Source: Erysipelotrichaceae bacterium 7770_A6 (GTDB lineage Bacteria; Bacillota_I; Bacilli_A; Erysipelotrichales; Erysipelotrichaceae). From it: 46,126 bases of DNA. Below the pieces are notes generated by a model. The model saw only the letters and a program-made list of their open reading frames with translations. It searched no databases and was not told where the DNA came from. The DNA lies in assembly GCA_014610835.1 (NCBI GenBank), contig QQXM01000036.1, positions 1 through 46,126 on the forward strand. Reading direction: 5' to 3'. Shown piece after piece: positions 21,338 to 26,248 of the stretch. How positions within the stretch are numbered: position 1 is the first letter of the stretch; each line of letters opens with the position of its first letter. A program made the position numbers and the translations under genes.

Positions 21338-22135
21338 TTATATTGATTTATTTTCGGATACCGCAATCAATGAATGATACGTTTTACCATTCATTTTCTT
21401 TTCAAGTTGAATGACAGGAACATGAAATACACGTGACAGGTTTTCTTCTGTCAAGATCTCATCTGTATTTCCAAAAATAGACGTTCCTTCTTTCGATAAG
21501 AGTAAAGTTTGATCTGCGATATCTAGTGCATGCTGGGGATAATGGGTATTGAATATGATCATCAATCCCTTTTCTTTTGACAAACGTTTCAATAGATCTA
21601 ATACAACAATTTGATTTGCCATATCTAATCCAGTTTCAGCTTCATCTAGAATCAACGCTTTTGGATTTGAACACAAAGCCCTGGCAATATATACAAGCTG
21701 TAATTCACCACCAGAAATTTCATTTATATTCTGTTCTTTTAAATGCTCAATTCCACATAATTGCATTGCTTCTAATGCATATTGCTGATCTGTTTCGTCA
21801 GGAAGTGAAAACATATTTAAATATGGACTTCTTCCAAGTAAAACCGTTTCAAATACAGAACATGGAAATGTAACGGTATGAGATTGTGGAACATAAGATA
21901 CTTGCCGAAAAAACACATTTACTGGAATCGTTGATATATCCTTTCCATCAAAAATTGCTTTTCCTTCTTTCCATTTCAGAAAACCAAGCATACACTTCAA
22001 TAATGTTGTTTTTCCAGCTCCATTTGGTCCAAGGATTGCGAGTATCTTCCCTTCATCGACTGAAAAAGAGATATCATTGAAAACAGGCTTTTCTTTTTTG
22101 TAGAAAAATGAGCCATGTAAAACTTCATACTTCAT
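21338..22135 (-). CDS. FecE/FepC-type ABC transporter ATP-binding protein
   Basis: 265 aa ATPase of a siderophore/haem/cobalamin-type importer. Walker A GPNGAGKTT is at 36-44, followed by SYVPQSHTVTFPCSVFETVLLGR typical of the FecE/BtuD group. The signature is ISGGELQLVYIARAL, Walker B ALILDEAETGLD, and the H-loop is in IIFNTHYP. The DEAETGLD in place of DEPTSHLD is a variant. The ATG overlaps the permease stop as ATGA. The substrate is unknown. Confidence 0.9.
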   Translation of the reverse strand: MKYEVLHGSFFYKKEKPVFNDISFSVDEGKILAILGPNGAGKTTLLKCMLGFLKWKEGKAIFDGKDISTIPVNVFFRQVSYVPQSHTVTFPCSVFETVLLGRSPYLNMFSLPDETDQQYALEAMQLCGIEHLKEQNINEISGGELQLVYIARALCSNPKALILDEAETGLDMANQIVVLDLLKRLSKEKGLMIIFNTHYPQHALDIADQTLLLSKEGTSIFGNTDEILTEENLSRVFHVPVIQLEKKMNGKTYHSLIAVSENKSI

Positions 22136-23127
22136 ATCTCAATTCCTCCTGTTTTTCTTAACAGCAGCAAGAATACGGGAGCACCAATGATTGCGGTCAA
22201 TATACTGACAGGAATTTCTGCCTGGTACATGCATCTGGCAATTGTATCAATTATGAGCATAAACAATGCTCCAAATACAATACATCCAGGAATGACTTTT
22301 GTATGATTGTTTCCAAACAGCATTCTTGAAATATGTGGAATCAGTAATCCAACCCATCCTACAACACCGCACATGCTTACTACAGAAGCAGTAATCAATG
22401 AAGAAGCAACAATCACAATCATTCGATTCTGGCGCACGTTGATTCCTAAAGAAGCAGCCTCTTCCTCTTTCAAACTCAATGCATTCATACGATATCGCAT
22501 CAAATACAATACAACCATACCTAGAACAATCATCGGTACACCTGTATACAAAGAACGTATCGTACTGTTTGAAAAGCTTCCCATCAGCCAGAATGTAATA
22601 ACTGGCAATACATCATTCGGATCCGCAACATACTTAATCAGTGAAACAAGTGCGGAAAACAATGAAGAAACAACCATTCCTGCAAGAATAATCATCATGA
22701 TTTGATTGGCATGCCTGTAACGTGTAAATACAAATACGAGCACTACTGCAAGGATTCCGAAAATCAGTGCTGAAATCTGAATTCCTAATGCATTCAATCC
22801 TAAAAGAATCCCAAGAGCAGCACCAAAACTTGCGCCATTAGCACACCCTAACGTATCTGGTGTAGCTAAAGGATTGGAAAATAACGCCTGAAATGATGCA
22901 CCAGCTGTTGCAAGTCCGCTTCCAACAATCAAAGAAACAAGAATACGTGGAATACGTATGTTAAAAATAACAGTTTCTGCATTTACAAGATCAACTTTCT
23001 GTAATGTCAGTACCTTGATTACATCTTGTAAAGCAATCGTATATTGTCCCAAACATAAAGCAATGAGTGCTAAAAAGAGTGTAGCAATACAGCCTGTAAT
23101 CATACATACACGATACTTTCTATCCAC
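22132..23127 (-). CDS. FecCD-family ABC transporter permease
   Basis: 331 aa, about ten membrane segments. Family hallmarks include RIPRILVSLIVGSGLATAGASFQALFSNPLATPDTLG near the N-terminus, and GVVGWVGLLIPHISRMLFGNNH toward the C-terminus. Two GTGs can start it. The one at 23127 is chosen because GAGGG lies 5 bases upstream. The 23139 GTG would start 4 residues earlier without a good site. Only one permease gene is present, so the transporter would use a homodimer. It lies between the binding lipoprotein (18 bp upstream) and the ATPase. Confidence 0.9.
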   Translation of the reverse strand: MDRKYRVCMITGCIATLFLALIALCLGQYTIALQDVIKVLTLQKVDLVNAETVIFNIRIPRILVSLIVGSGLATAGASFQALFSNPLATPDTLGCANGASFGAALGILLGLNALGIQISALIFGILAVVLVFVFTRYRHANQIMMIILAGMVVSSLFSALVSLIKYVADPNDVLPVITFWLMGSFSNSTIRSLYTGVPMIVLGMVVLYLMRYRMNALSLKEEEAASLGINVRQNRMIVIVASSLITASVVSMCGVVGWVGLLIPHISRMLFGNNHTKVIPGCIVFGALFMLIIDTIARCMYQAEIPVSILTAIIGAPVFLLLLRKTGGIEI

Positions 23128-23145
23128 GTATTCCCTCACTTTCTA

Positions 23146-24276
23146 TTAATTCATAGAACTGTCAGAAGCGTTTGGTGTATACATCTGATCAACCTGTTCA
23201 TCTGTCAATGTTACGCCAAATAAATTCTGATAGTATTCTTTTACATCAGCCTTGACATCCATATCTTTAAACAGTTCTGGATATACAGCCTGTGCAAGCC
23301 ATTCAAGTGTCATTGGTGAATCAACACTTGGTGTATATGTTCTATATGTGCCCAATGGCATTTTATAGACTCTCTTATTCTTAACAGCACTGACATTGGA
23401 CCAGTCATCACTGCCAATTGCATTATTGTAGAGATCATCTGGTTTTGCCTGAGTGAAGTTTGTAATCACAATGACATCCGGATCCCATTCATACACCTGT
23501 TCCATTGTAATCACAGCATTTGTCTTTTCTGCAGGTACATCCTGTGCCACGTTCACTGCACCTACAGCATCACACCACCATTGACCAAAGAACTTGCTGG
23601 AAGAAGTAATCATTGTATTTTCATCATACTGGAACAAGAATAATACTTTCTGCTTTTCTTCAACATTCTTCACTGTATCCTGAATCTTGTTATATGTATC
23701 TGTGGAATACTTCTTGATGAGTTCTTCTCTATTTCCAGCGTGTTCTGAATAGATTTGATCTAATAGATTCATCCATTCATTGAATGTTTCTGTACAGTTG
23801 AATTTCCATTTTGTAGCAGAGAAAGCCACAGCAGTCAATCCAGCATTTTCCAGCTTTTCTAGATCCTGTGTATCACTTGCATTATAGAAAACAACATCTG
23901 GTTTTAAAGCAAGCAGACTTTCAATGTTGACATCATCTCCATCCATGATATCAGTTGTAATATTTGTGATATCTGGATAGAGCTGTGATAAGATACCATT
24001 TTTTGCAGCATTCATACTGCCTGGTTCCATAGCGACAATAGAATCACAGGAATCCAGATATACCGTTAACATGGATGGTAATGGATAGATTCCAAGTACT
24101 GCTACGCGTTTTGGATTTGTTGGAACTTCTACTTCACGATCAGCATGATCTGTAATTGTTACAGTTGATGGCTGTGCAGTTGCAGAAGCAGAAGCGGATG
24201 TGCTTGTCTTTGGTGATGAACAAGAAACAAGCAGTGCTGTCATTGTGAGTGACAAGAATAATTTGAATAGTTTCAT
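23146..24276 (-). CDS. FecB-type substrate-binding lipoprotein
   Basis: 376 aa. The signal peptide ends at LVSC with the lipidated cysteine at 19, followed by a Ser/Ala/Thr-rich linker. The mature part is a periplasmic-binding-protein (PF01497-like) fold: HADREVEVPTNPKRVAVLG, then GDDVNIESLLALKPDVVF and VYEWDPDVIVITNF, typical of iron-siderophore, haem or cobalamin receptors. A ligand cannot be assigned. It is first in the operon, with AGAAAGGAAA before the ATG, and is preceded by an attenuator-like leader. Confidence 0.88.
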   Translation of the reverse strand: MKLFKLFLSLTMTALLVSCSSPKTSTSASASATAQPSTVTITDHADREVEVPTNPKRVAVLGIYPLPSMLTVYLDSCDSIVAMEPGSMNAAKNGILSQLYPDITNITTDIMDGDDVNIESLLALKPDVVFYNASDTQDLEKLENAGLTAVAFSATKWKFNCTETFNEWMNLLDQIYSEHAGNREELIKKYSTDTYNKIQDTVKNVEEKQKVLFLFQYDENTMITSSSKFFGQWWCDAVGAVNVAQDVPAEKTNAVITMEQVYEWDPDVIVITNFTQAKPDDLYNNAIGSDDWSNVSAVKNKRVYKMPLGTYRTYTPSVDSPMTLEWLAQAVYPELFKDMDVKADVKEYYQNLFGVTLTDEQVDQMYTPNASDSSMN

Positions 24277-24315
24277 AAAATTTCCTTTCTCACGATCGGA
24301 ATAAATGAAAATAAA

Positions 24316-24374
24316 ACACCTCTTTTAGATGCAAAGAGGTGTGAATATAAAATCACTTTCATTCACTCTCTTTG
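24316..24374 (-). promoter_or_regulatory. Attenuator-like leader with mutually exclusive hairpins upstream of the FecBCD-type operon
   Basis: In the minus-strand transcript, ACACCTCTTT pairs with AAAGAGGTGT (forward 24333-24342 with 24316-24325, 7-nt loop) and is followed by TTTTATTTT, a plausible terminator 40 nt before the start codon. Its 5-prime arm can instead pair upstream: CAAAGAG-A-GTGAAT (24361-24374) with ATTCAC-AC-CTCTTTG (24332-24346), 13 bp around a small internal loop. The two folds exclude each other, as in riboswitches and attenuators. I do not recognise the upstream part as any known aptamer; no cobalamin box is present. Confidence 0.6.
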
Positions 24375-24406
24375 AACGCAGATTTCTCTTTGTTTTTAGA
24401 TCGCAG
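24367..24406 (-). repeat. Duplicated CAAAGAGA / CTGCG motif in the leader
   Basis: On the forward strand TCTCTTTG occurs at 24367-24374 and 24385-24392, each followed by a CGCAG block (GAACGCAG 24374-24381, GATCGCAG 24399-24406). In the transcript both CAAAGAGA copies can pair with the CTCTTTG of the terminator arm, so they may compete with each other. Confidence 0.5.
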
Positions 24407-24410
24407 TTTT

Positions 24411-24416
24411 ATTATA
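24411..24416 (-). promoter_or_regulatory. Possible -10 element of the FecBCD-type operon
   Basis: Minus-strand TATAAT at 24411-24416. No good -35: that region lies in the thrS terminator. It would give a leader of about 125 nt that contains both hairpins. Confidence 0.4.
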
Positions 24417-24426
24417 CATGACAAAA

Positions 24427-24456
24427 CAAAAAAGAAGAAGTAATTCACTTCTTCTT
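24427..24456 (-). terminator. Terminator of thrS
   Basis: Minus strand: AGAAGAAGT (24447-24455) pairs with ACTTCTTCT (24433-24441), with a 5-nt loop and then a T run (24428-24433). Confidence 0.85.
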
Positions 24457-24461
24457 GTCTT

Positions 24462-26222
24462 TTACTTCTTCGCTGCAATTTCTTCTCTTAATGCTTTATA
24501 GAAATCTTCACATGCAAATGTTGCCTGATCACGAGAACCATATCTTCTAACAGTTAACGCATTGTTTGCTACATCGTTATCACCAACAACGATTTGAATT
24601 GGTGTCTTAGATGTCTGTGCTTCTCTAATACGGTAGCCAAGCTTTTCATTACGGTCATCAAGACTTGCTCTAACACCCATTGCCTTCAAATCAGCAACGA
24701 TCTTGCTTGCATATTCGCTATGTGCTTCAGGAGCAACTGGAATAACAACAACCTGCTTTGGTGACAGCCATAGAGGTAATACACCCTTTGTTTCTTCAAG
24801 CAGGAATGCAATGAAACGATCGAGGGATCCTAAGATAGCACGGTGGATAACAACTGGTCTTTTCTTCTGCTGATCAGAATCAACATATTCGAGTTCAAAT
24901 CTTTCTGGAAGCTGATAGTCTAGCTGAATTGTAGACAGTGTTACGTCATGACCTAAAGCAGAACGTACCTGTACGTCGATCTTTGGACCATAGAAAGCTG
25001 CTTCGCCTTCTGCTTCATAGAAAGGAACTTCCATTTCTTTGAGAACCTTTCTTAATTCAGCTTCACTCTTTTCCCACAGTTCATCATGACCGAAGTATTT
25101 CTCCTTGTTTTCAGGATCTCTTAGTGACAAACGGAAAGAATACTTTTCGAAACCAAAATCCTTATAAACATCAAGAATCAGCTTTGTTACGTCCTTGATT
25201 TCACTTGCAATCTGATCTGGTCTACAGAAGATATGAGAGTCGTTCTGTGTAAATGCACGCGCTCTTTCAATACCAGTTAAAGCGCCACTTGCTTCAAAAC
25301 GGAAGTCATTGGCAATTTCAGCAATTCTTACTGGAAGGTCTCTATAAGAATGCAGCTTGCTCTTGAACATGATCATATGTTCAGGACAGTTCATAGGTCT
25401 TAATGCATAGGCATTTTCAGGATCCTTTTCACTTGTCATAGCTGGGAACATATCATCTTTGTAGTGATCCCAGTGACCAGAAATCTTAAAGAGTTTTGTA
25501 TTGACAACGTTTGGTGTGCATACATGTAAATAGCCTTGTGCAATTTCTTTATCCATGATGTAGTCAGCTAATAATCTTCTGACTGTAAAACCATTAGGAA
25601 GATACATAGGAAGTCCAGCACCAACTGATACTGAGAACATGAACATCTGTAATTCTTTACCAAGTTTTCTATGATCTCTCTGTTTTGCTTCCTCTAGATC
25701 AGCTAAATGTGCTTCTAGTTCTTCAGGTGTTGGAAAGCATACGCCATAGATTCTCTGTAAAACTTTATTATTCTTGTCACCTTTCCAGTATGCACCAGAA
25801 TGTTTGATGAGCTTGAAGTTCTTACAAAGTTTTTCATTGTCTACATGAGGTCCTCTACATAAGTCTGTATAGTCACCTTGTGTATACATAGAAATGTTTG
25901 TACCTTCAGGCATTCTTTCAATCAAGTCAATCTTATATGGATCGTCTTTAAACTGCTGTAATGCTTCTTCCTTAGAAATTTCATGACGAACGATTTTCTT
26001 GCCATCCTTGGCAATCTTCTTCATTTCTTTTTCAATCTTTTTCAGATCGTCATCACCAAGTGTGACATCTCCTAAGTCAACATCATAGTAGAATCCTTCT
26101 TCTACAACTGGTCCTACCCAGAATTTAGCGTTTGGCCAAATGTGCTGGATTGCATGTGCCATCATGTGTGCACATGAATGGTTGAGTGTTTCTAGATCTT
26201 TGTTTTCTGTAAAATTAATCAT
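24462..26222 (-). CDS. thrS: Threonyl-tRNA synthetase lacking the TGS domain
   Basis: Charges tRNA-Thr. 586 aa from the ATG at 26222, which follows AAGGAG at 7 bases. It begins directly with the editing domain: H15 and H19 (NHSCAHMMAH), then C122 and H126 (CRGPH) complete the editing site. The catalytic zinc ligands are C279 (RPMNCPEH), H330 (NDSHIF) and H460 (VVIHRAILG). The anticodon-binding domain follows. The usual ~60-residue N-terminal TGS domain is missing. The upstream sequence is a T-box leader, so it is not hidden by a wrong start. Loss of TGS is, as I recall, also seen in some Mollicutes, which would fit an Erysipelotrichia relative. Confidence 0.94.
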   Translation of the reverse strand: MINFTENKDLETLNHSCAHMMAHAIQHIWPNAKFWVGPVVEEGFYYDVDLGDVTLGDDDLKKIEKEMKKIAKDGKKIVRHEISKEEALQQFKDDPYKIDLIERMPEGTNISMYTQGDYTDLCRGPHVDNEKLCKNFKLIKHSGAYWKGDKNNKVLQRIYGVCFPTPEELEAHLADLEEAKQRDHRKLGKELQMFMFSVSVGAGLPMYLPNGFTVRRLLADYIMDKEIAQGYLHVCTPNVVNTKLFKISGHWDHYKDDMFPAMTSEKDPENAYALRPMNCPEHMIMFKSKLHSYRDLPVRIAEIANDFRFEASGALTGIERARAFTQNDSHIFCRPDQIASEIKDVTKLILDVYKDFGFEKYSFRLSLRDPENKEKYFGHDELWEKSEAELRKVLKEMEVPFYEAEGEAAFYGPKIDVQVRSALGHDVTLSTIQLDYQLPERFELEYVDSDQQKKRPVVIHRAILGSLDRFIAFLLEETKGVLPLWLSPKQVVVIPVAPEAHSEYASKIVADLKAMGVRASLDDRNEKLGYRIREAQTSKTPIQIVVGDNDVANNALTVRRYGSRDQATFACEDFYKALREEIAAKK

Positions 26223-26248
26223 CTCTGTACTCCTTTTCGAGGACAAAT

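Follow-up and report, generated by a model that had tools for sequence, protein, structure and literature searches.

What does the noncoding leader between thrS and a FecB-type importer operon of Erysipelotrichaceae bacterium 7770_A6 respond to, and is it a switch at all? A preliminary description of the window (the whole analysed stretch of 46,126 nucleotides; contig QQXM01000036.1, assembly GCA_014610835.1) had proposed an attenuator in which a terminator and an antiterminator compete for one arm. Here we find that copies of this RNA in related genomes share one gene network, which therefore makes it a candidate orphan riboswitch, or a protein-bound attenuator, of [FeFe]-hydrogenase assembly. 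Among anaerobic gut bacteria [FeFe]-hydrogenase is the main enzyme of hydrogen formation, and to our knowledge no riboswitch has been assigned to it.

A leader with two competing structures

Folding and a pattern scan agree on the proposed terminator, and folding also gives the antiterminator that shares its arm (Table 1). The scan returned 3 terminator-like sites against a shuffle mean of 0.1, and the terminator hairpin folded alone reaches -13.8 kcal/mol (z -6.1). In the rival structure, CAAAGAG (24374-24368) is paired to CTCTTTG (24332-24338), and pairing of 24366-24361 with 24341-24346 lengthens the helix. None of 200 shuffles folds as well as the full leader (z -3.65). Stepwise folding of the growing transcript yields a hairpin, P2, then P2 with the antiterminator, which is the minimum-free-energy structure until the terminator 3' arm has been made, and then the terminator; compared as end states in the window, the terminator is the more stable (-21.6 versus -15.5 kcal/mol).

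The perfect -10 box would place the transcription start near 24404, and the upstream CGCAG copy (24402-24406) coincides with this expected start point. A start downstream of 24374, which had been named as incompatible with such a leader, is thus not suggested by the sequence. Most of 42 leaders have a -10-like box at a distance of 7-11 nt 5' of the core, which puts the expected transcription start at the edge of the RNA.

The repeated motifs lie where they had been described, in two copies each: TCTCTTTG at 24367-24374 and 24385-24392, and CGCAG at 24377-24381 and 24402-24406. They are not a clean tandem duplication, because the spacing of TCTCTTTG and CGCAG differs between the copies. The idea that both CAAAGAGA copies form rival antiterminators did not hold: the first is locked in P2, with no evident partner in the terminator among the relatives inspected, and the second is the antiterminator strand. 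Their resemblance follows from the family consensus, in which AAAGA is conserved within P2 and RAAGAG 3' of it.

Table 1. Positions and supporting evidence of the leader and its neighbouring genes in the window
Feature	Coordinates	Strand	Basis or remark
Leader	between thrS and FecB-type operon	-	holds terminator and rival antiterminator
-10 promoter box TATAAT	24411-24416	-	perfect match, 8 nt 5' of core
Conserved 37-nt core of the RNA family	24366-24402	-	model R1, 45.7 bits (scored as a member of its training set); model R3, 40 bits
P2 hairpin AAC-AA-AGA[GAAA]UCU-GC-GUU	24375-24394	-	unaided RNAfold and covariation; includes first CAAAGAGA copy
Conserved RAAGAG strand (here AAAGAG)	24368-24373	-	also antiterminator 5' strand
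Antiterminator (P3) 5' arm CAAAGAG-A-GUGAAU	24361-24374	-	folding and family-level support; includes second CAAAGAGA copy
Antiterminator (P3) 3' arm	24332-24346	-	folding; overlaps terminator 5' arm
Intrinsic terminator hairpin	24316-24342	-	10 bp, U-rich tail; folding and pattern scan
U-rich tail of terminator	24308-24315	-	pattern scan
Separate terminator after thrS	24432-24456	-	pattern scan
thrS, upstream neighbour	24462-26246	-	ORF; identified by sequence, not family scan
FecB-type substrate-binding lipoprotein, predicted first gene controlled	23146-24276	-	PF01497
FecCD-type permease	22132-23139	-	PF01032
ABC ATPase	21338-22135	-	PF00005
TM1266-like iron-only hydrogenase system putative regulator, 82 aa	21078-21326	-	TIGR03959 above cut-off; matches PDB 2nzc

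A conserved core and its covariation

The core consists of P2 with a conserved internal loop, followed by the RAAGAG strand. Aligned leaders gave the consensus YGA, P2 5' strand, RA, AGA, loop, UCU, GA, P2 3' strand and RAAGAG, with one A and one G of the last strand invariant across 33 sequences. An exact 13-mer search returned chiefly chance matches in coding DNA, so relatives were sought with covariance models instead (R1, R2 and R3, built from 11, 27 and 33 cores); their E-values are rough, and most family sequences come from metagenome-assembled genomes.

Seven of seven P2 pairs changed on both sides among the 33 sequences, with 93.5% of cells paired against at most 46.5% in slid controls. 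R1, trained on leaders of the genus only, matched Clostridia loci with compensatorily rewritten P2 strands, for example CACG/CGTG against CCGC/GCGG. The P2 of the window itself is weak (3+3 bp, -2.1 kcal/mol), and its internal loop is GC where most family members have GA. A further helix, P1a (AUCU with AGAU), suggested by RNAalifold on the Lachnospiraceae subset, was 68.2% paired over the 33 sequences, the same as shuffles, and was rejected; it is nevertheless present in the predicted fold of the window. One variant (L157:1712-1797) carries a long insertion that lengthens the P2 hairpin loop.

As the preliminary description had held, no known riboswitch signature is present: the window matched no Rfam 15 family at its gathering threshold, and the cobalamin models gave no match in the leader. 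Lax Rfam 15 scans of four leaders, with E up to 10, returned sub-threshold noise only. A T-box leader was considered because thrS adjoins the RNA, as it does directly upstream in several relatives too; the T-box model gave no match, and the RNA follows thrS rather than preceding it.

Alternative pairings in relatives

An intrinsic terminator lies 3' of the core in 53 of 57 leaders, some of these terminators having been placed by hand where the scan chose a wrong or padded hairpin. When terminators were reassigned among the 53 leaders, in permutations that ignore relatedness, the strand 3' of P2 (P3 arm) paired better with its own terminator (-457.9 against -391 ± 17 permuted; 1 of 5,000 as good), as did the bases 5' of P2 (P1 arm) with their own terminator hairpin (sum -451.8 against -346 ± 15; 0 of 5,000). 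In many relatives these P1 bases pair with the terminator hairpin and close a three-way junction; the P1 of the window did no better than chance. In ten Lachnospiraceae leaders, with the variable linker removed, pairing reaches 90.6% in the junction helices and 98.9% in the terminator, and double changes in antiterminator and terminator fall on shared columns. By the permutations and these double changes, the alternative pairings are conserved in relatives; mutually exclusive and covarying, they bear out a conditional-termination leader.

A convincing terminator is missing from three of the four hydG-associated copies, and the mode of control is therefore not uniform. At L224, L227 and L230, RNA copies lie about 10 nt upstream of the hydG start codon and no convincing terminator was found, an arrangement that suggests control of translation there.

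Genes downstream of the RNA

Whole-genome model searches located the RNA in the genus of the window (Erysipelotrichaceae) and in Lachnospiraceae-type Clostridia, ahead of a single network of genes: hydG, hydE, TM1266-like, nifH/D/K-like, FecBCD, and a second importer beside an [FeFe]-hydrogenase operon. The 70 genomes of the genus gave 30 matches at E ≤ 0.001, 29 of them before network genes and 17 of those 29 outside the training set. The remaining genus match, G022:C12 (29 bits), is probably spurious: the internal loop is missing from its core, and no network gene follows it. In the Lachnospiraceae-type sample, nearly all intergenic matches precede TM1266-like, hydG, hydE, FecCD, nifH-like or binding-protein genes, the remaining matches fall inside ORFs, and the identities of HydG, HydE and TM1266 downstream were confirmed; in one genome (G484) two copies stand 1.6 kb apart in one locus, before TM1266-hydE and before hydG. 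In wide samples of the Bacilli class and phylum nearly all matches were chance or in-frame; another genus of the same family gave the one convincing copy (L250). Weak matches near FecB starts (L182, L171 and L178) were judged to be chance and left out of the counts.

The nearest solved structures to the FecB-type lipoprotein of the window are 4ovk and then HI_1472 (3psa, 3psh), which we take to be the molybdate/tungstate-binding protein MolA; the lipoprotein may carry an oxyanion and not an iron chelate. Among 149 related genomes, a protein search found 14 close FecB orthologues, all within the genus. The leader lies directly 5' of fecB in the window, in G034 (Lactimicrobium massiliense, Erysipelotrichaceae) and in G046; in nine other genomes with a FecB orthologue it precedes a nifH-like gene that opens an operon continuing with two nifD/K-like genes, fecB, permease and ATPase. 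At L031:7757-10948 (minus strand) and similar loci the nifD/K-like genes are small, and hydF, the TM1266 gene and hydE follow in the same operon. Genomes with this L031-type operon are without HydG, and it is possible that the nifH-like and two small nifD/K-like genes substitute for HydG function.

A second arrangement in the genus runs thrS, RNA, TM1266, a binding protein distantly resembling nitrate-transport/NMT1 proteins, permease and an NADH-dependent [FeFe]-hydrogenase operon. At L133, L137 and L134 this second importer (binding protein and permease) adjoins TM1266 and the NADH-dependent [FeFe]-hydrogenase subunits. In most genus genomes with the RNA, the downstream gene set is an importer. 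Of 28 genus genomes with the RNA, 27 carry TM1266, and the one without it breaks off at a contig end (Fisher p 8e-6 for co-occurrence, not corrected for relatedness). The regulon points to [FeFe]-hydrogenase assembly. Of the metal, haem or chelate status suggested earlier as the signal, nothing pointed to haem, and iron would be one possibility among several.

Hydrogenase and maturases in the genus

All 70 genus genomes encode the [FeFe]-hydrogenase large-subunit domain, and 47 of 70 encode TM1266. Of the maturases, HydE was detected in 11 of 70 (E ≤ 1e-60), HydF in 12 of 70 (E ≤ 1e-40) and HydG in 0 of 70 (E ≤ 1e-50), in draft genomes where genes may be distant or missing. At the same cut-offs, HydE, HydF and HydG were not detected in the genome of the window, which is 98% complete. 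That genome has an [FeFe]-hydrogenase-type domain at G000:C215:366-1211, and its 601-aa hydrogenase keeps the TSCCP, MPCxxK and ExMxC H-cluster motifs. A FecB orthologue accompanies HydE in all 11 HydE-carrying genomes; nine of these show the nifH-like leader arrangement, and the other two (G009 and G067) have the nifH-like gene and no RNA.

It is possible, as speculation, that the importers under the RNA in this genus bring in an H-cluster precursor. Such import is chemically thinkable, because a synthetic product of HydE bypasses HydG and HydE in vitro (PMC11736057). Nitrogenase-like enzymes can serve sulfur assimilation (PMC11423573), so a role of the nifH/D/K-like genes at the H-cluster does not necessarily follow.

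Interpretation and alternatives

We consider it probable, at roughly 0.6, that the RNA is a riboswitch: a cis-regulatory family absent from Rfam that controls termination before genes building or supplying [FeFe]-hydrogenase. Its core is conserved with compensatory changes across Erysipelotrichaceae and Lachnospiraceae-type genomes, its expression-platform structures are mutually exclusive, and its gene association is consistent; direct ligand binding, the identity of the ligand and the direction of control we infer. The nascent leader would fold the conserved P2 hairpin, after which the RAAGAG strand and the following bases would pair with the terminator 5' arm (P3, ON); if P3 did not form, the terminator would (OFF). 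This choice would be biased by a ligand bound at the P2/junction region, either a small molecule or an ion, with a link to H-cluster assembly or to what the importers carry. In the window and in the Lachnospiraceae group the conserved RAAGAG strand is built into the antiterminator, which suggests a ligand that turns expression OFF: by holding RAAGAG, it would shift the balance to termination, in line with feedback on synthesis and import. The P1 pairing would suit the reverse, ligand = ON.

Could a protein do the sensing? A regulator, possibly TM1266-like, would then bind P2 with its internal loop and RAAGAG, setting termination as PyrR, TRAP or LicT do. Proteins often bind short hairpins that have a conserved internal loop, and this one could equally be protein-bound. 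TM1266, which often lies directly downstream of the RNA and co-occurs with it as described above, is called a regulator, yet its family model of about 76 residues leaves no room for a separate DNA-binding domain. Set against this are some 20 genus genomes that carry TM1266 without a detected RNA at E ≤ 0.001; we also know of no RNA-binding activity in the TM1266 family, and an attenuator of this kind would still need some sensor. We regard a protein-bound attenuator as unlikely, though to be taken seriously, and favour the riboswitch over it.

The greater stability of the terminator end state in the window would suit a plain constitutive or partial terminator with chance complementarity and no conditional switch. 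The antiterminator pairing, however, shows covariation and specifically fits the terminator of its own leader, and a plain terminator gives the long-range conserved core no reason to exist; we therefore rate it very improbable. A short overlapping ORF can also be traced along the window leader and through the terminator, as ribosome-stalling attenuation of the trp/his type would have it, but across the leaders no ORF with a ribosome-binding site is conserved, and conservation resides in the folded core with its covariation, not in codons, which brings the likelihood of a leader peptide close to negligible.

Within the riboswitch reading, a more specific version strikes us as a long shot: the ligand would be an intermediate or product of H-cluster assembly, and the RNA would control synthesis in organisms with HydG/HydE and import in those without. 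Many gut Erysipelotrichaceae, including the organism of the window, would then get an H-cluster precursor from neighbours through FecBCD or the second importer. By linking hydG, hydE, TM1266, nifH/D/K-like genes and two importers, the RNA defines a regulon, which connects poorly understood genes with H-cluster assembly. A question also becomes concrete, namely the cofactor source of a hydrogenase that has intact [FeFe] motifs and no detectable HydE, HydF or HydG; the ligand would answer part of it.

Comparison with known RNAs

We found no description of a riboswitch before hydG, hydE or TM1266 in the open-licence literature, and papers on new RNAs from 26 and from 50 bacterial genomes do not mention hydrogenase. 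The hya and NiFe-hydrogenase RNA motifs are named for their nearness to hydrogenase genes, a location shared by the RNA here; they concern [NiFe] enzymes, however, and our Rfam scans matched no such family. The PyrR, TRAP and LicT attenuators likewise place a short hairpin, with conserved internal loops, across rival termination structures, but the operon here holds no PyrR, TRAP or BglG-type regulator, the TM1266-like protein being the sole candidate. The nifV riboswitch candidate is also an RNA before a metal-cofactor assembly gene; its description, as a ribosome-binding-site type found only in Geobacter with four representatives (PMC11109978), sets it apart. The terminator-controlled THF-II, guanidine and Na+ riboswitches differ in that the RNA here has no sequence or structure match in Rfam 15, and resemble it in being 5' leaders with a folded conserved core and alternative structures that serve one network of making and importing genes.
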